Below are positions 1,102 to 36,406 of a stretch of DNA of 64,000 nucleotides, piece by piece. Every line of letters starts with the position of its first letter. Position 1 is the stretch's first letter. The stretch is from Flavobacterium cauense R2A-7 (GTDB lineage: Bacteria > Bacteroidota > Bacteroidia > Flavobacteriales > Flavobacteriaceae), in contig NZ_AVBI01000019.1 of NCBI RefSeq assembly GCF_000498475.1, positions 434,001 through 498,000 of the forward strand, given 5' to 3'. A program made the translations under genes and the position numbers. The notes beneath the pieces were generated by a model. It was given only the letters and a program-made list of their open reading frames with translations, was not told the origin of the DNA and searched no databases.

Positions 1102-1305
1102 TTAGCCAATAATATGCTGTTCAATATCTTCATACTTTAAGCCTGCATATTGACAGAACTCTTCAATACTTACAAAGTTGTCTTTGGACTTATTTAAACC
1201 CTCCTTTATCTTCTGGAGAAGTCTTGTACTTTGACGGTAACTTTTCCCTGTAATACGTTGTATGTCCTTTGGGTAAATACATACTCTTTTAGGCTCTGAT
1301 TTCAT
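1102..1305 (-). CDS. Small DNA-binding-like protein next to integrase
   Basis: A 67-residue basic protein of predicted helices, with YPKDIQRITGKS near the N terminus and FVSIEEFCQYAGL near the C terminus. I recognise this type as common beside integrases and mobile modules in Bacteroidota, but I cannot assign a named family. The arrangement of two short helices looks like a minimal helix-turn-helix, so roles as an excision factor or local repressor are possible, though neither is proved here. It is transcribed toward the integrase and shares its terminator. Length and start (ATG at 1305) are consistent with a complete gene. Confidence 0.6.
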   Translation of the reverse strand: MKSEPKRVCIYPKDIQRITGKSYRQSTRLLQKIKEGLNKSKDNFVSIEEFCQYAGLKYEDIEQHIIG

Positions 1306-1571
1306 ACTTTATCTATGCTTTTGATATGGCTTTGCTATACTCTATTTGTTGTCTTGAAGAGCTAAAATAGATAATTATTAGAATCGTTTTCGATGGTCAT
1401 TTATGTTTTGTTTGGACATTTATATCATTTGATGTCATTTGGTTTAATATGATTAATTAAAGTGTTTTATTAATTATAATATTTGTTCTCAAATCCTTCA
1501 GGAATTGTTGCAACAAGATGAAGATTTATGAATTTGAACACGAATTATTAATCTAATCTATTTAAAATATT

Positions 1572-2327
1572 ATGGCTAGACAGAAAGGCATAATTAAACT
1601 AAAAGGTACTATCGGGGATATTACTTTTTATAAAACACAAGACGGGCATTTGGCTCGAGAAAAAGGCGGAATTGATGCGAGCAGAATTGCGAGTGATCCA
1701 GCTTTTCAGAGAACAAGAGAAAACGGTTCTGAGTTTGGAAGAGCCGGAAAAGCCGGTAAGGTTTTGAGAACATCATTAAGAGGTTTGCTTTTAAATTCTG
1801 CCGATGGTAGAATGGTAAGCCGATTGACGCAGCGAATGGTAAAAGTTATTCAGGCTGACACAACCAGCGAGCGTGGTTTAAGAAATGTTATCGATGGTGA
1901 GGCTGAATTGCTGGCAGGTTTTGAATTCAACATTAGAGGAAAGTTGGGAACCAGTTTATTTGCTCCTTTTGTAGCAACCATTGATAGAGTAACTGGGGAA
2001 ATCAAAGTTGATTTGGCTTCATTTATACCATCGAATATGATTGCTGCACCAACTGGAACAACGCACTTTAAAATTATTTCTGCGGGTACTGAAATCGATT
2101 TTGAAGCAGAAACTTTTGTTGAAGCTCATTCCGAAACGGCTATTTTGCCTTGGGATACTACAGCAACTGCCGCTATCAGTCAAACGAATTTGGTAACTGC
2201 GAATAGTACACATCCTTTATTTTTAGCATTAGGGATTGAGTTCTATCAACAGGTAAATGGTCAGATGTACCCTTTGAAAAATGGGGCTTTTAACCCATTG
2301 GCTTTGGTTTCTGTAAGCGGATTGTAA
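1572..2327 (+). CDS. Unrecognised 251-aa protein, first gene of a three-gene cassette
   Basis: I do not recognise a functional family. The N-terminal 75 residues are basic and Gly/Arg-rich (KGTIGDITFYKT, then DPAFQRTRENGSEFGRAGKAGK), followed by Ser/Thr-rich, beta-prone sequence to the C terminus. There is no signal peptide, membrane segment or obvious catalytic motif. Two small membrane proteins follow on the same strand, 28 bases away and then overlapping, so the three are probably co-transcribed and end at the 2857-2886 terminator. The composition would suit a nucleic-acid-binding or structural protein, but that is only an impression. ATG at 1572 is the first in-frame start. Confidence 0.7.
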   Translation: MARQKGIIKLKGTIGDITFYKTQDGHLAREKGGIDASRIASDPAFQRTRENGSEFGRAGKAGKVLRTSLRGLLLNSADGRMVSRLTQRMVKVIQADTTSERGLRNVIDGEAELLAGFEFNIRGKLGTSLFAPFVATIDRVTGEIKVDLASFIPSNMIAAPTGTTHFKIISAGTEIDFEAETFVEAHSETAILPWDTTATAAISQTNLVTANSTHPLFLALGIEFYQQVNGQMYPLKNGAFNPLALVSVSGL

Positions 2328-2355
2328 TAATGTCTAATCTTAAAATAGAGAATTT

Positions 2356-2634
2356 ATGAACATTGTAGAGAGAGCTAAGGCTCCAACACCAAAGTTTTTC
2401 AGAGTTTTGAGAACCGTAGGTTTAGCATTATTGGCGGTAAGTGGTAGCATTGTTGCTGCTCCAGTAGCTTTGCCTGCGATTGTAGTTACAGTAGCTGGTT
2501 ATGCTGCAGTTGCTGGTACTGTATTATCTGCTGTAAGTCAGGTTACGGTTGATGATGATGCAAAGCGTGAGCAGGAAATTGTAAAACGACTGCAGGAAGA
2601 AAACAAATATTTACCTCGTGATGGAATCAAATAA
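2356..2634 (+). CDS. Small membrane protein, 92 aa
   Basis: A short basic N terminus (about 20 residues) is followed by two Ala/Val/Gly-rich hydrophobic segments at roughly residues 22-42 and 44-64, then a charged tail beginning DDDAKREQE. That is the layout of a small helical-hairpin inner-membrane protein. The family is unknown to me. It lies 28 bases after the 251-aa gene and its last codons overlap the start of the next small membrane gene, which implies one operon and translational coupling. A holin-like or membrane-anchor role is conceivable but nothing in the sequence decides it. Confidence 0.65.
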   Translation: MNIVERAKAPTPKFFRVLRTVGLALLAVSGSIVAAPVALPAIVVTVAGYAAVAGTVLSAVSQVTVDDDAKREQEIVKRLQEENKYLPRDGIK

Positions 2635-2797
2635 TTCAATCCATGCGGGAACTGCAGCCGGAACCGTTTTAAGTATAGTGCCTAATATCAGTTCCGAAGA
2701 TATTTTAAAAACGATTGTTTTGGCAATTGTCGGAGCAATTGTAAGTTTTACAGTCTCGTTACTATTAAAGAGGCTGACAAAATTCAAAAATAAATAG
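2621..2797 (+). CDS. Small single-span membrane protein, 58 aa
   Basis: A short ORF starting ATG at 2621, inside the last codons of the 92-aa gene, and ending TAG at 2795-2797. The product has a polar N terminus, a hydrophobic helix at about residues 30-49 (rich in I, V, L, A, G) and a Lys/Arg-rich tail ending KRLTKFKNK. The start overlap of 14 bases suggests translational coupling with the upstream membrane protein. Overall it resembles small holin-like or toxin-like peptides. The reading is supported by its position in the cassette and by the terminator that follows, but the function is unknown. Confidence 0.55.
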   Translation: MESNNSIHAGTAAGTVLSIVPNISSEDILKTIVLAIVGAIVSFTVSLLLKRLTKFKNK

Positions 2798-2856
2798 TGC
2801 TTCGATGTACTCAGCAACCATCCGGTTTTGATTGGTAACCTTTTCCGGATAATTAG

Positions 2857-2886
2857 AAAGCCTGGTCACGTGATCAGGCTTTTTTG
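2857..2886. terminator. Rho-independent terminator, bidirectional
   Basis: Eleven-bp near-perfect palindrome (2859-2869 with 2870-2880, one G-U pair) flanked by an A-run on the left and T6 on the right. It lies between the plus-strand cassette ending at 2797 and the minus-strand gene ending at 2891, so it can stop both. Confidence 0.85.
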
Positions 2887-2890
2887 TATG

Positions 2891-3070
2891 CTATCCTTCC
2901 TGAAATTGATTTAACGTTACTTCTTCAATTACTACCTCAGCATCTGAAGTATACAATCCGTTATACTTTGCAATATCGACGGCTTTAATTCTGCTGTCGA
3001 ATATTCCAAAATAAATTCTCGATGATTTGGTTTTCCAAACATCTGTTCGGTACAAAATAAATAGTGTCAT
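2891..3070 (-). CDS. Small hypothetical protein, 59 aa
   Basis: An ORF from ATG at 3070 to TAG at 2891. The product begins MTLFILYRTDVWKT and ends TLNQFQEG, and is mixed alpha/beta-prone with no signal peptide or membrane segment. It follows the DUF6943-like gene by 27 bases on the same strand and ends right at the bidirectional terminator, which supports a real two-gene transcript. I do not recognise a family. Confidence is moderate because the gene is short. Confidence 0.5.
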   Translation of the reverse strand: MTLFILYRTDVWKTKSSRIYFGIFDSRIKAVDIAKYNGLYTSDAEVVIEEVTLNQFQEG

Positions 3071-3097
3071 AGGCTGGTTATGTTATTGGCTTTTACT

Positions 3098-3520
3098 TTA
3101 TCGCTTACAGTACCTGTACAGGATAGTTCTACGCAAATCATTAATAAGATTGATATTTTCGTGAAATTGCTTTTCCTTTAATTCCAAAAGGCGTAATGCC
3201 TGAATGTTTTTTTTGTGCTGTTCGTAATCTTCATAAATTTCTGTTACTCTTGGAAATAACTCTTTTTTAAATTCCTGCAATCGAATAAAAGGAATAACAG
3301 AACCTATTAAAAATTGATGCCAAAATTTTGATTTCCATAAACTGAAAGTTACCCAGTAGATATTTTCGCAATCTTCTTCGTTTTGGAAAATGAGTACAAA
3401 GCTATTTGTAAATGGTTCCTTCTGCGGTTTACCGCTGTTAAGTCCTTTGTTAAGGATAAATAAATGAGGTTTGCTGTAAATAGTGTCCTTTCTGTGGGTT
3501 TTAACGATGTAATTTATCAT
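3098..3520 (-). CDS. DUF6943-like protein
   Basis: A 140-residue soluble protein with an N-terminal beta-prone part (INYIVKTHRKDTIYSKPHLF, then LNKGLNSGKP), a central aromatic segment YWVTFSLWKSKFW, and a long helical charged C-terminal half. I match this by memory to the DUF6943 proteins found in Bacteroidota accessory regions; their function is not established. It is the upstream member of a two-gene minus-strand unit with the 59-aa protein, and it points away from the large structured-RNA region that begins about 80 bases upstream. No catalytic motif is visible. Confidence 0.6.
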   Translation of the reverse strand: MINYIVKTHRKDTIYSKPHLFILNKGLNSGKPQKEPFTNSFVLIFQNEEDCENIYWVTFSLWKSKFWHQFLIGSVIPFIRLQEFKKELFPRVTEIYEDYEQHKKNIQALRLLELKEKQFHENINLINDLRRTILYRYCKR

Positions 3521-3600
3521 GGCTTCGGATTTTAGTTTAATGCTCAGTCCCTTCCTTACACAACATTTTTTTCAAAAGAAAAAAGAGTAAAAAAGAAAGC

Positions 3601-4711
3601 CTACTACCCCTGTGGAGGGGTTCAGAAAAGCAAGTTTTTCTGGAAAAATACTACCCGGATGGGTGGAGATTTTTACAGAAACCCGTAGGGTTTGAACTTG
3701 CTTTTTTGAAGACCGGAACTAATCTTTGCCTTCTTTTTTTCTCTTTTTTGTTTTGATTACGAATTGTTTCTTCTGAAATCCTGATCTTCATGAATTGAGA
3801 GCTAATCGTCTTGAAAGGGTTAGAAATTTTTGGGCATTTTGAATAAAAGAAACTTGTCAGTAAAACCAGAGTGCGTTTCAAAATGCCCAAAAATTTGTAA
3901 CTCTTTCTTAGGACTTGATTTTTGGGGATGCCAAAAGCAGTGTTCAGTGAACAGTTAGCAGTATGCAGTGAGGTTTTTGTTCTGAAAATGGAAGGCATCT
4001 CCAAAAAATAACTATAAACCACTCCTAGTGCGGTGGCAGTAGCGGAAGCATGGGTATTGTTTCTTTATTTGTCAACTAAAGGTCTTCTGATTGGTTTTAT
4101 GCCGGCTTGATGCCTTTATAGGTGTACAATATTCCGAACTTCGTTTACAAGAAATTGTGATTATGGAATTGTAAGGCATTGAGCTGGCGTGAAACCAATT
4201 ATGGCAATGCTACTGGCAAATAAAGAAACAATACTTATGCGGGCAAAATTTGGCTTTGTGGGTGCTGTTTGGTTTCTGCGGTGGGATTAACTTGAATTAA
4301 AGAGAAAAGTTGCTTAGGAATTGTTACAGCGCTTACAAAGGCAATGCAAACACTACCGCTTTAAACACAAAGAAGCTAAAAACAGGAAACGGAAACTTCT
4401 TCTGGAATGAATTTAGCCTAAAAATTTCTGTTGAAAAACTGCGCTTGTTAAAGGTAGTGGCGAAGGGCGGTGTTTTTGGTAGCTGGTTGGTGCGATGGAA
4501 GCTGCCAAAAATGTTGCCCTGGAGCCACTACCCTGCGCGGCTGTTTTACATAATGACATCTTATAGTGCTTGGCTTTCCAAAAATACAATAACTAGGTCT
4601 GGCATGAACTATAAGACTGCATTATGTAAAACAGCTTGGGGAAAAAAATTACTGGCACAAGTTGCGAAGCATACGTGTTTTTGTACTAAAAACTGTGACA
4701 GTAATTTTTTT
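3601..4711 (+). ncRNA. Candidate large structured RNA, about 1.1 kb
   Basis: This stretch has no convincing gene and is instead full of long inverted repeats. Arms: 3621-3636/3695-3710, with 3637-3642/3676-3681, 3644-3649/3669-3674 and 3651-3656/3661-3666 nested inside; 3813-3843/3877-3907 (20 bp perfect core); 3919-3932/3994-4007; 4055-4071/4217-4233 (17 bp perfect) enclosing 4090-4114/4175-4199 (25 bp); 4278-4284/4353-4359; 4453-4461/4524-4532 enclosing 4473-4484/4500-4511; 4540-4555/4620-4635 (16 bp perfect); 4642-4654/4699-4711. Almost every imperfect pair in these arms is G-U when read as a plus-strand transcript and would be A-C on the other strand. That favours a functional plus-strand RNA over transposon ends. 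I cannot place it in a named family, and no clear promoter is visible. The exact ends are estimates. Bases 3521-3600 and 4712-4875 hold nothing I can name. Confidence 0.6.
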
Positions 4712-4875
4712 AAAGCGTTGGAAAATAATTCTATTGAGCTACTCTAAAAAAAATGAAACGATTAATAATTACACTTAAGGAAATTAGCGAAATGAAGCAA
4801 ACAAAGAACCGACTTTAGGAATACTTGGACTAAAGACAGTTTTTGTGTAGCTGAATGAGATAATGACTATTATGC

Positions 4876-8603: not shown

Positions 8604-11600
8604 TTAATTATTGCTAAAAGATGGGAATTGCAATTGAATAGCGCTTTGATTATAAGCATTTACCGCTTCGGCATTTTGCTTTTTTATATCGATTGCCTGA
8701 TTTAAAAAACTGATGTACGACCAGTAACTCATATCGCCATTGGCATAACTTTTTTGTGCCGTTGTTATGATTTGGTCTGCGTATTGCAATCCTTCATTTT
8801 GATAATACAGCATTGCTTTGTTCTGTTTATCGAACTCGCTTTTCAATTCTTCTTTTTGCAGTTTTAAAGCTAATTTACTTTTATCTAATTCCAGTTGTGC
8901 CTGTACCACACTTATTTCTGAAGCCTTGGCACGAGCCGAATTTACACCTCCAAAAAGTGGAATTTGTAGCCCCGCCGTAAATCCTTGGAAATAAGATTTT
9001 GTATCGATGGTCTGTCCAAAATAACCTAATCCTAATTTTGGTGTTCTCATTGCCTTGAAAATATTGGCTTCTTTTTGATAAACTGAAATTTGTTGGGTGT
9101 AATAATCGTTTACCAATCCTTGCACTTTATCCTCGGCAATTGAAACATTCTTTTCATACTTTAACGGAGTTGCGGCATCAGGAACAATATTTTCATCGGT
9201 TTGGATAAAATACTGTAACTGCTTTTGATACACCGCCAAATCGTATTCCAACTGTAATTTTTGGGTTTCAATTTCTTTTACCTTGGCTTTGGCACTTATG
9301 ACTTCTATATTACCACTTTCACCTGTTTGAAAACGAAGTTCAGCATTTTTTAAAAACTTGATATAAATGTCACTCAATTCGTTGTTTAACTTTTGAATGG
9401 AAACACCATACAAATATTGATAGTAAGCTAATGTTACCGCTTTTTCAATTTCGTATTCTGATAAGGCTTTTCTTTTCTCAGCTAATTTTGCCAATTCTTC
9501 CTGTAATTGTCTGTTTGCCTTAGTGATTTTACCAATTGGGAAATATTGCTGAACAGAAACATTATGGTCATAATCAACACTATTAAACTGTCCGCCTTGG
9601 TATTGGACTTGCAAAGGATCTACTTGAAATGCCGCTTTTTTAAGCGTCGTTTGTTTTTCAATTTCTTTATCGGCAATTTTTAAATCGATATTGCTTTTCT
9701 TGGCTAAGGTAATTGCTTGGTCTAAAGTTACCGTTTGCTTGTTTTGTGATAATGCTACACAGCTAATCAATAGAAACCAAAGGGTTACAAATGGTTGTCT
9801 TTTTTTAAATTTTCTTATTTTCATTCCGTTTTCAAATAATAAATAAAGTATTGGTAATACTATTAATGTCAGTAATGTTGCCGAGAACAAACCGCCTATA
9901 ACTACTGTTGCCAATGGTTTTTGTACTTCGGCACCGCCACTGGTTGATAATGCCATAGGCATAAATCCTAAAGAAGCCACTGCCGCTGTCATTAACACAG
10001 GTCTAAGTCTTGTTTTTGTCCCCATTAATACACGTTGCAACGGATCGGTTATACCTTCTGATTTTAGTTGATTGAAATAGGAAATCAATACAATTCCGTT
10101 TAAAACGGCAATACCAAACAAAGCAATAAATCCAATTCCTGCTGAAATACTAAAAGGCATTCCTCTAAGCCATAACGCAAAAACACCACCTATCGCTGAT
10201 AAAGGAATCGCGGTGAAGATTAACAAGGACTGTTTCACACTGTTGAATGTAAAAAACAGTAAAACCATGATAAGTCCTAATGCAATGGGCAACGCTATTG
10301 AAAGACGCTTATTGGCTTCAACCAAATTTTCAAATTGTCCGCCATAAGTAATATAGTAACCCGCAGGAAGCTTGAAATTGGTTTCCAGTTTTTGCTGAAT
10401 TTCTTCTACCACACTTTTTATATCACGACCACGAACATTTAACCCAACTGTTATTCTACGCTTTCCATTTTCACGAGAAACTTGTACAGGACCTTGCTCA
10501 TAACTAATGGCAGCCACTTGGGATAGTGGTACTTGCTGACCATTTGGCAATGGAATAAACAAATTGCTTACGTCTGTAATATCGCTTCTGTTGGCTGCAT
10601 CCATTCTAACCACAACATCAAAACGCTTACTCTCTTCATAGATTTTTCCTGCGCTTTCCCCTGCAAACGAGGAACGAATAATTTTATTGACATCAGTAAT
10701 ATTTAAACCATACAATGCAATTTTATTGTAATCGTATTTTACAGTTATTTGTGGGAGTCCGGTTACTTTATCAGCCTTTAAATCGCCAATACCTTCTATT
10801 TTATTTATTTTAGAAATCAATTCTTTGGCTTTTGTATCTAAAACTTCTAAATCGTCACCAAAAATTTTAATGGCTATATCGCTTCGGCTACCCGTCATTA
10901 ATTCGTTAAAACGCATTTGAATAGGCTGTGAAATTTCGATATTCGCCCCAGGAATAGCTTCCATTTCTTCTTTCATCAAATTGGCTAAATCTTCCCAATT
11001 ATCGGCAGATGTCCACTCAGATTTGTCTTTCAAAACAATAATCAAATCGCCACTTTCAATTGGCATTGGGTCGGTTGGGATTTCTCCACTTCCAATTTTG
11101 GTAACGATGGTTTTAATTTCTGGGAATTTTGCTTTTAGAATTTTCTCATATTTGGTTGTTGTTTCTACCATTTGGGTTAATGAACTACCTGTCATAATGG
11201 TAGCATTAATGGCTAAATCGCCTTCTTCAATGGTTGGAATAAATTCGCCACCCATATTTTGAAAAGTTATTACAGCCAAAGCAAATAATCCTAATGCGAT
11301 TACTAAAACCGATTTTTTAATTTGCAATGCTTTTTCTAAAAAAGGGGTATATATCTTCTCGAACCACGCCATCATTCTATCGCTAAAATTCGATTTATGC
11401 TCAGTATTTTTCGATAAGAACATAGCACTCATCATTGGCACATAAGTCAATGATAAAATAAATGCTCCAATAACTGCAAAACCTACTGTCATTGCCATTG
11501 GTTTGAACATTTTACCTTCTGTTCCTACTAAGGCTAATATTGGCAGATATACGATAAGAATTATTATTTCCCCAAATGCTGCACTATTTCTGATTTTTGA

Positions 11601-12923
11601 AGCAGATTTATATACCTCGCTATCCATTTCGGATTGGGTTAAATCCTTTTGCCTTTTGAGTTTTTGTAAATGGTGCATTGTGGCTTCGACAATAATAACT
11701 GCCCCATCGACAATGATACCAAAATCGATTGCACCTAAACTCATTAAGTTTCCACTCACACCAAAGTAATTCATCAGGATTACTGCAAAAAGCATTGACA
11801 AAGGAATTACGGAAGCTACGATTAATCCGGCACGAAGATTTCCTAAAAATAATATCAGTACAAAAATTACGATTAAAGCTCCTTCCAATAGATTTTTTGT
11901 AACCGTTCCTATGGCGTTGTCTACTAATTTACCTCTGTCAATAAAGGCTTCGGCAACTACTCCTTCAGGTAACGTTTTATTGATTTGAACCATTTTTTCT
12001 TTCACTCTTTCCACTACAGCACTGGAATTTTCGCCTTTTAACATTAATGCTAAACCGCAAACAATTTCTCCTTTACCGTCTTTTGTAGAGGCACCATATC
12101 GCAATGCAATACCTTCACGTACTGTTGCAACGTCACGCACTAAAACAGGAGCACCATTTCGGTTTTTGACTACTACATTTTCTAAATCCTTGATGCCCGT
12201 TGCCATACCCACACCACGAATGAAATAAGCGTATTGGTCTTTTTCAATATAGGCACCACCAGTATTTTGATTATTTTTTTCTAACGCATCAAAAATCTCA
12301 GTGATAGTAACGCCTAAACTATTGAGTGTGTTTGGATTAACTGCAACTTCATATTGTTTTAATTTTCCACCCCAAGTGCTCACTTCAGCAACGCCTTCAA
12401 TACCTTGTAATTGTGGTATAATTATCCAATCTTGAATGGTTCTTAATTTGATGGCATCGTACTTATCTTCATACCCTTTTTTAGCATATACATCATACTG
12501 ATAAATTTCTCCAAGACCTGTTGAAATTGGTGCCAATTCAGGCGAACCAGCATAGTCAGGTATATTTTCTTCGGCTTGCTTTAATCGTTGAAAAATTTGT
12601 TCCCTTGCCCAATATATATCTACATCGTCTTTGAAAACAACCGTAACTACCGAAAGCCCGAAACGAGAAATACTTCGTAACTCAATTACTTTGGGGATGG
12701 TTTTAACGGATTGCTCTAACGGATAGGTAATTAATTGCTCCACTTCCTGACTGGCAAGAGTGGGCGCAGTAGTAATAATTTGTACCTGATTATTGGTTAC
12801 ATCAGGCAAAGCATCAAGCGGTAATTGTTTAATAGAATAGCTACCCCACGCTATAAGGACTAAGGTTAGCAATAGTATAATGAATTTATTCTTTATACTG
12901 AATTGTATTATTTTGTCTAACAT
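8604..12923 (-). CDS. czcA: CzcA-type RND metal pump fused to TolC-like channel
   Basis: A 1439-residue fusion. Residues 1 to about 1045 are a full heavy-metal RND pump: TM1 at about 11-31, two large periplasmic porter loops, and the TM4 motif DFGIIVDGAVIIVEAT near residue 403 typical of HME-type pumps that use proton motive force. After a short basic linker (about 1050), a hydrophobic segment ending LISCVALSQ is followed by about 375 residues of coiled-coil outer-membrane factor sequence (TolC/CzcC-like, two repeats). The whole envelope path is thus encoded by this gene plus czcB. Such fusions are known in Bacteroidota. How the TolC part reaches the outer membrane (processing at the internal signal-like segment) is an open question. 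It is first in the operon. Confidence 0.94.
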   Translation of the reverse strand: MLDKIIQFSIKNKFIILLLTLVLIAWGSYSIKQLPLDALPDVTNNQVQIITTAPTLASQEVEQLITYPLEQSVKTIPKVIELRSISRFGLSVVTVVFKDDVDIYWAREQIFQRLKQAEENIPDYAGSPELAPISTGLGEIYQYDVYAKKGYEDKYDAIKLRTIQDWIIIPQLQGIEGVAEVSTWGGKLKQYEVAVNPNTLNSLGVTITEIFDALEKNNQNTGGAYIEKDQYAYFIRGVGMATGIKDLENVVVKNRNGAPVLVRDVATVREGIALRYGASTKDGKGEIVCGLALMLKGENSSAVVERVKEKMVQINKTLPEGVVAEAFIDRGKLVDNAIGTVTKNLLEGALIVIFVLILFLGNLRAGLIVASVIPLSMLFAVILMNYFGVSGNLMSLGAIDFGIIVDGAVIIVEATMHHLQKLKRQKDLTQSEMDSEVYKSASKIRNSAAFGEIIILIVYLPILALVGTEGKMFKPMAMTVGFAVIGAFILSLTYVPMMSAMFLSKNTEHKSNFSDRMMAWFEKIYTPFLEKALQIKKSVLVIALGLFALAVITFQNMGGEFIPTIEEGDLAINATIMTGSSLTQMVETTTKYEKILKAKFPEIKTIVTKIGSGEIPTDPMPIESGDLIIVLKDKSEWTSADNWEDLANLMKEEMEAIPGANIEISQPIQMRFNELMTGSRSDIAIKIFGDDLEVLDTKAKELISKINKIEGIGDLKADKVTGLPQITVKYDYNKIALYGLNITDVNKIIRSSFAGESAGKIYEESKRFDVVVRMDAANRSDITDVSNLFIPLPNGQQVPLSQVAAISYEQGPVQVSRENGKRRITVGLNVRGRDIKSVVEEIQQKLETNFKLPAGYYITYGGQFENLVEANKRLSIALPIALGLIMVLLFFTFNSVKQSLLIFTAIPLSAIGGVFALWLRGMPFSISAGIGFIALFGIAVLNGIVLISYFNQLKSEGITDPLQRVLMGTKTRLRPVLMTAAVASLGFMPMALSTSGGAEVQKPLATVVIGGLFSATLLTLIVLPILYLLFENGMKIRKFKKRQPFVTLWFLLISCVALSQNKQTVTLDQAITLAKKSNIDLKIADKEIEKQTTLKKAAFQVDPLQVQYQGGQFNSVDYDHNVSVQQYFPIGKITKANRQLQEELAKLAEKRKALSEYEIEKAVTLAYYQYLYGVSIQKLNNELSDIYIKFLKNAELRFQTGESGNIEVISAKAKVKEIETQKLQLEYDLAVYQKQLQYFIQTDENIVPDAATPLKYEKNVSIAEDKVQGLVNDYYTQQISVYQKEANIFKAMRTPKLGLGYFGQTIDTKSYFQGFTAGLQIPLFGGVNSARAKASEISVVQAQLELDKSKLALKLQKEELKSEFDKQNKAMLYYQNEGLQYADQIITTAQKSYANGDMSYWSYISFLNQAIDIKKQNAEAVNAYNQSAIQLQFPSFSNN

Positions 12924-33979: not shown

Positions 33980-36406
33980 TTACTTTATATCATTTTGTAA
34001 ACTGTTTAATGCCTCGAATGAGTAATTGTCTTTGGCTTGTATGTAGGCAATTTTTGGTATTATTTCTGCTCCCAGTTTTCGTTTTTCGAATGTGGCCGAA
34101 AAGCCAAAATCTATTTTTGAAATGCCTAAAGTATTGGCTCTCTTAATAATCTGAAACAATAACTGACGGTACAAATGCAATTCCTGAACGTAGTTGTAAT
34201 TCATCCCTATTAGCGTTGGAACGTAAGCCCTTTTTAAATTTTTATACCCGAATACTACGCCAACCATTTCGGGTTCTTTTGATTCATTTTCTTTTAAATA
34301 TAGCACTATAAATTCCCATGAAGCATAGTCGCTCATTTTCTTGAAAGCACTTAATGGATAAGTGAAAGTGTTGATTGCAACATTGTTGTCTTTTACGTTT
34401 GTGTATAGCTGATATGCTTTCTCTAATTCTAAATCTGATAGATTACTTTTAACCTGAATATCAAAGCAAGTTTCAAAAGGAAGAACTTCTTTATTAAAAT
34501 GTTTTCTGGAACGAGGTGACAGCTTCTTTGTAAAATCTTCAATCGTTGACCAAGTGTTATCTGTTACGGTACAAGCTTCCGGCATAACTACTTTTACAAA
34601 GCCTTGATTGTGTAGCACATCATCCCAATTATTATCCGTTTCAAAATCCCTAAATACCAGCATATCCGCATTTACATCATGGTATAGCTCATCTGCTTTT
34701 GAAAGCAACATTTTTATTGCTTCGTTTTGCAACGGATGCTGATTATTACAGTAATAGTGTTGTCCCTCGGTAAAAAGCGAGCCCATGCTCACTACTTTTG
34801 AAGTATGGTACAATGGATTTGATTTCCGTTTTTCTTCCAGCTGTTTTGAAACGGATTCCGGTAACAGCATATCATCCTTCCATAATGAGCAAGTAAAGAA
34901 AGTAACGAGGATTGGCATGTTAGCGGTATCTCTTATAATGCAGTAATAAAAGTCCCAGTTGTCCTGTGGATTAGGATTGTTCTTGAAAGTTTCTTCTAAA
35001 TAACACATTCCTTCCCAATCGAAAACACTTTGCCCTCCCAGTGAAGTATTCCAAAAATCTTTATCTATGTTGTGAATTGAGGTTTCAAACTGGAATTTCA
35101 ACAAACCAGAATCGACACTCACTTTTTTGACTTTCTTAAATATTCTTTCAAGGCGAAAACTTCTTTGGATTTTATCCAGACTATTATCCGTTTCTTCCAA
35201 AGCTTTTGGTAAATGAAATTGTAAAGCTTCCGCCAATGCTTTAATATCTTCTTTCTGATTATGACGTGATATCGTTATACGAATCCCGGTATTTTTAACT
35301 GGAACAGCAGGATACAATCCTGGATTCACAAAAAAACCTTCTTTGAAAAGCTTTTGAGTAAGATTATAAGCTGTGGCCGGCATGCCTGTTCCTATAAAGA
35401 AAACCGGTGAATCATTCTTAACGATTAGCGGTACCGGTGAATCTTCTAATAATGAATTGAAATAAGATATTCGTTCCGTTAATTCATTTTGCATTACTGT
35501 GATTTCGGGTGATAAATGAATATCGGCTGAGCTAGATGCTGCGGCAAGTGAAGCGGGTTCCAGTTGTGCTGAAAATGTTAATGGTCCTCCAAAATTTTTT
35601 ATTTTGTCTCTTAGCTTTCCATCTGAACAAATTAACATTGCTCCGCTTGCTCCAAACGTTTTACTTAAAGTTGAAACAATTAAAACATTGTTTGGTAATT
35701 GGTTAAATGAATCAAAAACATAACCCGTACCGTTTTTACCTTTCCAACTCATGCCGTGAACATCATCAAAATATAAATGCAGTTGAGGGTATTTTTGTGT
35801 CAGTTTTATCAATTCCGGGATTGGTGCAAAATCGCCAAACATTGAATACACGCCATCGGCCATATACCATATTTTCCCGCCCCTATTGGCGAGTTCTTTT
35901 ATTTTGTCTTCTACCATACTGAGGTTGTTATGACGAACCATTTCTACGGGAATCCCTCTTAGTTTGAGCTGCTGACAAGCATTTTGCACGCTCCAGTGAA
36001 CCTGATGATCTAAAATAACGGCATCTTCGTCGCGAACCACGGTTGGAATAACTGCCAAATGTCCTAGCGTACTGTTTTTAGTAATCACTGGTGTTATGCC
36101 ATACATCTTTTCGATTTTTGCTTCCAATTCGGCATACAATGGATTTGATATATACGTTTTGGAAAGCGGGAATTGGGTACCGAATTTTTGAATAGCGTTT
36201 ATCGCCGCTTGCTTAATTCTTTCATCCTGCTCTAAACCAAGATACCCTGTTGTTCCGAAATGATACATCTGTTTCCCTTCTATTTGCAATGTTCTGCCGT
36301 TTAAGAAGGAATCTTCGGCATACAAATGAAGTACTCCTTCATTTTTTGCGCCCGAGATGACACTATTTACAGTGTCGATAAAGTTGTTGTGTTTAATTTT
36401 AGCCAT
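33980..36406 (-). CDS. Alpha-oxoamine synthase fused to N-acyltransferase-like domain
   Basis: 808 residues. Residues 1 to about 410 are a PLP-dependent alpha-oxoamine synthase (KBL/AONS/serine palmitoyltransferase/CqsA family): DDVHG at 214-218 and the PLP lysine K249 in STLSKTFGASGAM. These enzymes condense an amino acid with an acyl-CoA or acyl-ACP to a 2-aminoketone. From about 430 to 808 lies a GNAT-fold region of the FemAB/BioF2-like type (ending with SKIDFGFSATFEKRKLGA). The combination could make and then N-acylate an aminoketone, giving a ceramide-like lipid or signal; the exact product is not readable. It is divergent from a DUF7793 gene and a HAMP/PAS/AraC regulator and is followed by rteC at 10 bases. 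Confidence 0.88.
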   Translation of the reverse strand: MAKIKHNNFIDTVNSVISGAKNEGVLHLYAEDSFLNGRTLQIEGKQMYHFGTTGYLGLEQDERIKQAAINAIQKFGTQFPLSKTYISNPLYAELEAKIEKMYGITPVITKNSTLGHLAVIPTVVRDEDAVILDHQVHWSVQNACQQLKLRGIPVEMVRHNNLSMVEDKIKELANRGGKIWYMADGVYSMFGDFAPIPELIKLTQKYPQLHLYFDDVHGMSWKGKNGTGYVFDSFNQLPNNVLIVSTLSKTFGASGAMLICSDGKLRDKIKNFGGPLTFSAQLEPASLAAASSSADIHLSPEITVMQNELTERISYFNSLLEDSPVPLIVKNDSPVFFIGTGMPATAYNLTQKLFKEGFFVNPGLYPAVPVKNTGIRITISRHNQKEDIKALAEALQFHLPKALEETDNSLDKIQRSFRLERIFKKVKKVSVDSGLLKFQFETSIHNIDKDFWNTSLGGQSVFDWEGMCYLEETFKNNPNPQDNWDFYYCIIRDTANMPILVTFFTCSLWKDDMLLPESVSKQLEEKRKSNPLYHTSKVVSMGSLFTEGQHYYCNNQHPLQNEAIKMLLSKADELYHDVNADMLVFRDFETDNNWDDVLHNQGFVKVVMPEACTVTDNTWSTIEDFTKKLSPRSRKHFNKEVLPFETCFDIQVKSNLSDLELEKAYQLYTNVKDNNVAINTFTYPLSAFKKMSDYASWEFIVLYLKENESKEPEMVGVVFGYKNLKRAYVPTLIGMNYNYVQELHLYRQLLFQIIKRANTLGISKIDFGFSATFEKRKLGAEIIPKIAYIQAKDNYSFEALNSLQNDIK

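Follow-up and report, generated by a model that had tools for sequence, protein, structure and literature searches.

The first hairpin of a conserved element in Flavobacterium cauense R2A-7, denoted D1, is probably (about 0.6 on our estimate) a single-stranded DNA (ssDNA) promoter of CTnDOT-type mobile elements of Bacteroidota, with an action resembling that of the Frpo promoters. The element as a whole is best understood, by analogy, as the equivalent of Frpo in Bacteroidota, with an RNA candidate attached. The fold, its covariation, the promoter motif and the polarity of the adjoining genes emerge from comparison among homologous loci. All positions refer to the window, i.e. the whole stretch of 64,000 nucleotides that was analysed. 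A preliminary description of this window had proposed a plus-strand structured RNA of about 1.1 kb. A selected plus-strand fold of approximately 1.17 kb is indeed present, whereas the idea of one continuous RNA is not retained, as the stem of D1 holds the putative promoter.

Conserved fold of the plus strand

The conserved unit comprises positions 3558-4738 (approximately 1.17 kb), and conservation drops sharply at 4738. A homologue search across 150 related genomes yielded matches in 51 genomes, the source genome counted; according to a hand count, 47 of these 51 belong to the same genus as the source, which is again included. The alignment consists of the window copy and 24 homologues (25 sequences), the latter with 59-74% identity to the window. 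Neighbourhoods extend up to 20 kb and the extracted copies have a length of 1.2-1.6 kb. Not among the 25 rows are L059, which shares 99% identity with the window, L057, which is interrupted by an IS, and the short or split copies L060 and L066-L078. Two open reading frames of 123 aa and 145 aa overlap the folded region.

The earlier suggestion that the element matches no named class agrees with the Rfam searches, strict as well as lax. At the gathering threshold, none of the Rfam covariance models matches the element in the window, and a lax search of positions 3500-4800 returns only 21 sub-threshold matches, mostly to eukaryotic microRNA families. The same comparison for eight relatives of the element returns one tRNA and nothing else. 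The Rfam library presumably includes GOLLD, ROOL and OLE. A group II intron, the known large RNAs and riboswitches were rejected for lack of an Rfam match in these searches. A transposon end or IS was likewise rejected: the unit holds no transposase ORF, and the IS in L057 is a later insertion. A phage origin was rejected with 0 matches in 50,697 phage records at an E-value of 1e-5. The D1 core pattern is present in seven IMG/VR contigs, and those of sufficient length are included in the D1 locus counts given below. A blastn search of positions 3560-4740 against 72,556 plasmids retrieves eight records, all from Bacteroidota and none of them an enterobacterial plasmid.

All eight stems listed in the preliminary description are found in the sequence with the pair counts it gave. 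Stem 4055-4071/4217-4233 consists of 17 Watson-Crick pairs out of 17, stem 4090-4114/4175-4199 combines 20 Watson-Crick pairs with five G-T pairs, and stem 3813-3843/3877-3907 contains one G-T pair and one G-G mismatch. A single G-T pair occurs in each of the stems 3621-3636/3695-3710, 3651-3656/3661-3666, 3919-3932/3994-4007, 4278-4284/4353-4359 and 4473-4484/4500-4511. The claim that the non-standard pairs are all G-U is correct for the stems listed there, but does not extend to the AT-rich outer arms 3573-3600/3728-3755, in which 25 of 28 pairs are Watson-Crick and the others are one A-C, one G-G and one T-T.

The folding energy of positions 3567-4560 is -362.7 for the plus strand (shuffles -257.1 +/- 7.0, z = -15.2) and -279.0 for the minus strand (shuffles -200.3 +/- 5.4, z = -14.6). 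With z-scores this similar, the energy of a single sequence cannot choose the strand. Four of the six most structured 200-nt segments (GC-corrected, 319 scanned) fall within the element. For the 25 aligned sequences, RNAalifold reports -480.9 kcal/mol (plus strand) and -405.6 kcal/mol (minus strand). Forty shuffles in which the conservation and gap class of the columns are retained yield -152.5 +/- 7.7, corresponding to a z-score of about -43 for the real alignment. Compensatory change is observed in 136 of 316 consensus pairs (summed over helices), and several loops are more variable than their own stems. The longest stacked helices of the consensus comprise 30, 24, 20 and 19 bp, as compared with a maximum of 8 bp in RNase P and 9 bp in tmRNA. 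The gene-free stretch is a real, strongly conserved fold of one strand.

The plus strand is the folded strand and is under selection. The preliminary description had derived this strand from an excess of G-U over A-C pairs, an argument that is valid in principle. Raw counts are circular when the fold allows G-U: the plus-strand fold has a raw G-U:A-C count of 732:91, and this ratio is no evidence for a strand because shuffled alignments also arrive at 7.3:1. The plus-strand bias is nevertheless upheld by strand-neutral tests. Among 268 pairs obtained from G-U-free folds of both strands, G-U occurs 211 times and A-C 82 times (in 97 and 48 columns, respectively). A further 32 helix-internal columns are unpaired in both folds and contain 204 G-U, 117 A-G, 91 G-G and 51 T-T combinations, the remaining ones being A-A (43), C-T (24), A-C (14) and C-C (1). 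Purine-purine mismatches (251) thereby outnumber pyrimidine-pyrimidine mismatches (76). A shuffle of partners among these internal columns gives 186 G-U and 29 A-C, hence the signal resides in the composition of the columns and not in the pairing within them. The order of mismatches seen here is also their order of stability in DNA. The counts therefore show a folded plus strand, either as RNA or as ssDNA. The G-U:A-C ratio of the element is 4.3, compared with 7.9 for RNase P and 2.6 for tmRNA of the same genus, analysed in the same way (26 sequences each, kept from 30 RNase P and 31 tmRNA loci, the others ending at a contig edge).

Downstream of D1, the plus strand forms the hairpins D2 to D8. 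D2 (3813-3907) has a 31-bp stem with compensatory change in 21 of 30 pairs and a G-U:A-C count of 61:11. D3 (3915-4011) and D6 (4453-4532) are defined by the consensus fold together with the G-U:A-C count of the domain. D4 (4045-4242) is a two-stage hairpin assembled from the stems 4055-4071/4217-4233 and 4090-4114/4175-4199, with a G-U:A-C count of 138:13 over 4016-4245. D5 (4250-4344; G-U:A-C 57:5) is followed by a conserved linker (4345-4452) that is mostly unpaired in the consensus and has a conservation of 0.73-0.91 per 20-nt bin. D7 (4540-4635) has 15 of 15 Watson-Crick pairs at its base. D8 (4641-4711) consists of complementary arms (4642-4659/4694-4711, 94%), the 3' arm ending in a T run; the hairpin is a possible end of a plus-strand transcript, and a simple terminator scan does not call it. 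Parts of D2-D8 are also found in other genera (L139, L140), with weak matches to D7 in L144-L146 and L150. The G-U bias is weaker in D1 (44:21) than in D2-D8 (354:63), and by this measure D2-D8 look more RNA-like than D1. Judged from these sequence features, positions 3756-4711 are a good candidate for a structured RNA, and an RNA of about 980 nt, reaching from 3733 to 4711, is possible.

The D1 hairpin and its putative promoter boxes

D1 (3567-3762, plus strand), the candidate ssDNA promoter, is delimited by the alignment, a covariance model and a fold of the window copy with DNA parameters. The outer stem is formed by a polypurine 5' arm (3573-3600), conserved in the alignment of the upstream sequences and the putative template arm of the proposed transcript, and a 3' arm (3728-3755) identified by the consensus fold and the pair check. 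This polypurine character of the outer 5' arm (3567-3600 in the window) is conserved in the homologues, and the opposing arm, with which it is paired over 28 bp, is a polypyrimidine tract. The 5' arm of the inner stem (3617-3637) pairs with 3694-3714 in columns that covary, and faces the putative -33 box and part of the spacer. The apical hairpin (3638-3680) carries the motif AAATACTACCC...GGGTGGAGATTTT, an invariant or near-invariant core in the alignments A1 and A2. Alignment A2 (17 loci) contains 31 pairs, 14 of which have changes on both sides.

A covariance model of the D1 core (R1, positions 3601-3727, built on 17 sequences) has matches in 62 of the 299 family genomes searched (54 of 236 genera) and in 24 of the 395 genomes sampled from the phylum (12 of 170 genera). 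The core pattern is found in at least 116 stretches of named genomes; among the 80 matches listed by title, one is a metagenome-assembled genome (MAG) titled Clostridiales and the rest have Bacteroidota names. A profile of the complete unit reveals D1, i.e. its first 190 nt, without the remainder in L068-L070, L077 and L078, and the regions 3' of D1 differ widely across the phylum. In Bacteroidales, D1 precedes a different folded region (-506 versus -278 +/- 8.1 for shuffles; 12 nonredundant of 52 usable loci), with both-side change in 59 of 290 pairs and a neutral G-U:A-C ratio of 2.2. The G-U:A-C counts for Bacteroidales are 61:39 in D1 versus 130:46 downstream. Fold z-scores of individual loci are -7.7 (plus) and -5.2 (minus) for L036, and -12.7 (plus) for L038.

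We also note two arrangements with more than one copy. In three different records (L185, L215 and L244), the D1 core pattern occurs twice in tandem at a distance of exactly 363 nt. Divergent pairs of D1, approximately 3.5-4.1 kb apart and with the 5' genes between them, occur in G282:C8 (4665, minus strand; 8912, plus strand) and G409:C2 (206263, minus strand; 209919, plus strand).

The 3' arm of D1 looks like the carrier of a vegetative promoter box of Bacteroidota, and recognition of this box is predicted from its sequence. According to excerpts of PMC9723704 and PMC7366714, the motif for the primary sigma factor of Flavobacterium psychrophilum is TAnnTTTG at -12 to -5, the Bacteroides promoter combines TTTG near -33 with TAnnTTTG near -7, and F. 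johnsoniae yielded no identifiable -33 box. We scanned 124 nonredundant loci out of 201 D1 loci in bins of 60 nt, counted from the start of the D1 core. Plus-strand TAnnTTTG peaks at +60 to +179, with 70 and 19 matches in the two bins; the other plus-strand bins contain 0-8 matches, save 18 at +660 and 11 at +840, and the minus strand contains 0-1 per bin between -180 and +419. The exact motif is located on the 3' arm of D1 in 73 of 116 anchored loci, and is almost always followed by C among the 45 loci printed. The 43 loci without an exact box include the window copy and a subclade with TTTA. Of the 73 loci, 49 have a TTG at a distance of 21-23 nt ahead of the -7 box, even where the intervening sequence is fully replaced, while 16 of the 73 have no TTG at 15-24 nt before the box. 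Among divergent representatives the spacing of the boxes is 17-25.

In the window, the putative -33 box TTG (3698-3700, plus strand) lies inside the stem, 20 nt before the putative -7 box AATCTTTG (3721-3728, plus strand), which the motif scan and the published consensus place with one mismatch to TAnnTTTG. With the box at -12 to -5, the promoter as double-stranded DNA (dsDNA) would start a plus-strand transcript at 3733. The sole exact TAnnTTTG within 3541-4760 is located at 4586 on the minus strand and is taken as chance. Neither the upstream alignment nor the bin scan contains a conserved TAnnTTTG 5' of D1 that could yield an RNA containing D1. The -7 box is paired in Bacteroidales D1 versus mostly placed in an internal loop in Flavobacterium, so that the opening of the box would differ between the two groups.

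The segment that extends from -33 to -7 pairs with its own 5' arm at a mean of -18.6 kcal/mol (DNA parameters), as compared with -9.8 for the arms of dissimilar loci and -8.5 for shuffled sequences. Of 88 loci, 63 have an own duplex that is stronger than every cross pair, and in 69 it is stronger than 95% of them. For 17 divergent representatives, the own arm gives -20.2 versus -11.2 +/- 0.8 kcal/mol for permuted arms (z = -11); the lowest of 5000 permutations reaches -15.3, and the own arm is best in 14 of 17 cases. A control segment 3' of D1 yields -9.3 for own and -8.6 for cross pairs. The representatives of both the 88-locus and the 17-locus test were picked by the pattern TA..TTT[GA][CT], and the box is hence a selection criterion and not itself under test. 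The energies of own versus permuted arms imply that compensatory changes have maintained the pairing of the arms throughout the phylum.

A dsDNA promoter has no need of a covarying partner arm. The covariation would also fit an RNA that runs across D1 and is transcribed from a different type of promoter; a transcript starting at about 3733, however, could not include the covarying 5' arm, since the promoter is situated inside the D1 stem. On the 3' arm of the folded plus strand, the -33 box is nearer to the loop and the -7 box nearer to the base. In our model, RNA polymerase positioned in this way would use the 5' arm as template, pass the base of the hairpin and enter the genes located 5' of D1.

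Neighbouring genes and mobile-element context

In the window, transcription from folded D1 would first encounter the gene of a DUF6943 protein (3098-3520, minus strand; Pfam PF22105, E = 2.3e-56). We searched for five proteins up to 3.5 kb 5' of D1 in 97 of the 124 nonredundant loci, using one query each and with some contigs being short; of the early loci L035-L078, only the window copy entered this survey. The matches comprise DUF6943 (37), SSB (7), a 71-aa protein (9), DUF932 (8) and PcfK (11), and all of them (72 of 72) are encoded opposite to the D1 strand. At least one of the five proteins is present in 56 of the 97 loci, and none is matched in 41. The median distance of the gene start from the D1 core is 134 nt for DUF6943, 212 nt for SSB and 188 nt for the 71-aa protein. 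Pfam confirms DUF6943, SSB, DUF932, PcfJ and PcfK for examples. SSB adjoins D1 in L170 and, by similarity, in L178. Within the early loci, nearly all Flavobacterium copies have DUF6943 on the opposite strand 5' of D1, and it is not found there in L055, L070, L072, L076 or the plasmids. DUF6943, PcfK and the 71-aa protein may be establishment genes. On the other side of D1, the nearest downstream ORF of at least 150 aa is convergent in 87 of 113 loci.

The module that precedes the element in the window (1102-3520) and in many Flavobacterium loci consists of genes for a 67-aa HTH-like protein, a 251-aa protein, a small membrane-like protein and DUF6943. It often occurs together with DUF5675, which is absent in the window, and variable cargo of defence or metal type is found after the element. 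The 251-aa protein has no Pfam match and is presumably similar to DUF6266. Of 163 clustered loci, 36 have a DUF6266 gene 5' of D1, encoded opposite to it (e.g. L145, 936-1577). The loci L145, L146, L149 and L150 encode a 98-aa protein on the opposite strand, approximately 154-450 nt 3' of the start of D1; in L145 this protein is assigned to HTH_17 by Pfam and is excisionase-like.

Mob genes are present in six of the 14 regions examined (p214, G697, G774, G659, G682 and G609). These six regions share a common map: mobC, mobB and mobA are oriented against the direction of D1, ParA and the tra genes along it, and D1 follows. SSB/DUF932 or PcfJ/PcfK are located beside D1 and opposite to it in five of the six regions, with no match in G659. 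D1 is followed by an integrase in G682 and G697, and also in p214 if the circular record is read past its first base. Relaxase genes usually enter the recipient last; taken together with mobCBA opposite to D1, this rule designates the plus strand of D1 as the putative transferred strand. The gene order in six of six mob regions thereby points to transfer of the strand that folds. D1 and mobA are separated by 14-29 kb, hence D1 is not beside oriT. We take the circular record p214_V8GG_COL1 for CTn214 as described in an excerpt of PMC10865816.

The spans fetched for G262, G045, G270, G172, G392 and G770, as well as both D1 contigs of the window's genome, contain no mob gene. The island at this locus harbors an integrase, DUF6943 and RteC, with no tra or mob match over 144 kb, and a search of the window's genome for a PF03432 relaxase, a model that may not detect MobB, found none. 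The island would therefore need a helper or be a remnant. Elsewhere, the window contains a 1439-aa ORF (8604-12923) that looks, by eye, like a fusion of an RND metal pump with a TolC-like outer membrane factor, and an 808-aa protein (33980-36406) that consists of a BioF-like aminotransferase and a part weakly similar to an acetyltransferase.

Proposed action, alternatives and known systems

For the transferred strand, for transcription from ssDNA and for the D2-D8 RNA, we infer the following course. Transfer would leave the element single-stranded, upon which the plus strand would fold and its 3' arm (non-template) would pair with the 5' arm (template) to give a double-stranded promoter. On this duplex, RNA polymerase carrying the primary sigma factor would start opposite position ~3733, near 3595, leave the hairpin at its base and continue into the genes 5' of D1, with the plus strand as template. 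The genes served in this way would be DUF6943 in the window, and SSB with DUF932, or small genes with PcfK/PcfJ, in other elements, and they would be expressed in the recipient before second-strand synthesis. Once the element is double-stranded, the same boxes would point the opposite way and, as our best guess, give rise to a D2-D8 RNA of about 980 nt that ends at D8. Such a switch by strandedness, in which one pair of boxes serves establishment genes from ssDNA and a structured RNA of up to ~1 kb from dsDNA, is a tentative proposal that we consider possible but doubtful.

The observations have also been read in other ways. A single plus-strand structured RNA of about 1.1 kb, comprising D1 to D8 and transcribed from an unseen promoter 5' of 3567, would account for a plus-strand fold with compensatory changes throughout the unit, for the fall of conservation at its 3' end and for a G-U:A-C ratio between those of RNase P and tmRNA, and the covariation of the D1 arms fits it equally well. 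We nevertheless regard it as unlikely: the conserved promoter box lies inside the unit on the 3' side of D1, no conserved TAnnTTTG exists upstream, and the sequences that follow D1, itself with a weak G-U bias, vary widely across the phylum. As a weak argument in the same direction, position 3651-3666 holds a terminator-like hairpin (2 sites in the scan versus 1.3 +/- 1.1 expected). Somewhat less likely again is an ordinary dsDNA promoter for the D2-D8 RNA, the inverted repeat of D1 being a protein-binding operator. The boxes read towards D2-D8, whose RNA-like counts and terminal hairpin with T run would suit such a transcript, yet the -33 box and spacer covary in 17 divergent loci with a partner arm that a promoter of this kind does not need; the excess of purine-purine and G-T combinations on one strand and the opposite orientation of the neighbours in every match likewise speak against it.

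Long, near-perfect and strand-specific hairpins, well beyond the helix lengths of RNase P and tmRNA, together with the location on mobile elements would be expected if D1-D8 were an ssDNA element of other use on the transferred or rolling-circle strand, i.e. a site for sso/ssi priming or for a relaxase or SSB. According to the title of a paper that the excerpt of PMC11541004 cites, Frpo itself primes replication. Such a use alone leaves the constant place of TAnnTTTG and the fixed polarity of SSB, DUF932, Pcf and DUF6943 genes unexplained, and we consider it improbable. A target for cargo insertion, that is, a recombination hot spot whose hairpins guide integration, is highly improbable: the unit is interrupted by cargo or an IS in L057, L067, L071 and L175, but the break points differ (profile positions ~260-308, 536-559, 249-1054 and 1179) and 25 copies are aligned without such a break.

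The preferred reading of D1 as an ssDNA promoter builds on Frpo1, Frpo2 and the ssi promoters of F, ColIb-P9 and related plasmids. As described in excerpts of PMC9849209 and PMC11541004, these are, like D1, noncoding hairpins of one strand with the boxes in the stem; they have an AT-rich stretch beyond the -35 type box (UP element), as does D1, and are located directly upstream of establishment genes including ssb, as is D1 judged by its neighbour genes. In the F plasmid, ssb is downstream of Frpo2 (PMC9849209, excerpt), and in other plasmids ssb adjoins Frpo-like hairpins (PMC11541004, excerpt). For D1, comparison places the boxes in the stem, the -7 box of the window having one mismatch, and upstream of establishment-type genes on the opposite strand (72 of 72 matches opposite, in 56 of 97 loci, with 7 SSB). 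D1 differs from Frpo in phylum and sigma factor, with TAnnTTTG in place of TATAAT, in its distance of 14-29 kb from mobA, and in the up to 1 kb of additional hairpins that follow. No likeness in sequence to Frpo was found, as judged indirectly from the plasmid blastn, and the relationship is one of analogy.

GOLLD, ROOL and OLE have sizes comparable to that of the element and a mobile-element habitat. They are large, ornate RNAs (PMC12286853, excerpt), and the element is likewise large and ornate; unlike them, it has no Rfam match, consists of a row of long near-perfect hairpins and carries a putative promoter in D1. RteR of CTnDOT, likened here by description only, is also noncoding, belongs to the same element family and acts on the tra operon (PMC7366714, excerpt), but has a length of 90 nt.

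In Bacteroidota, tetracycline resistance and further cargo travel on CTnDOT-type elements. A narrow literature search found no account of how these elements express their genes in a recipient ahead of second-strand synthesis. If the switch by strandedness is true, the D2-D8 RNA would be among the largest ornate bacterial RNAs. A promoter on the folded strand, if true, would explain early expression in the recipient and mark the transferred strand, and it would extend a mechanism of enterobacterial plasmids to another phylum with another sigma factor.
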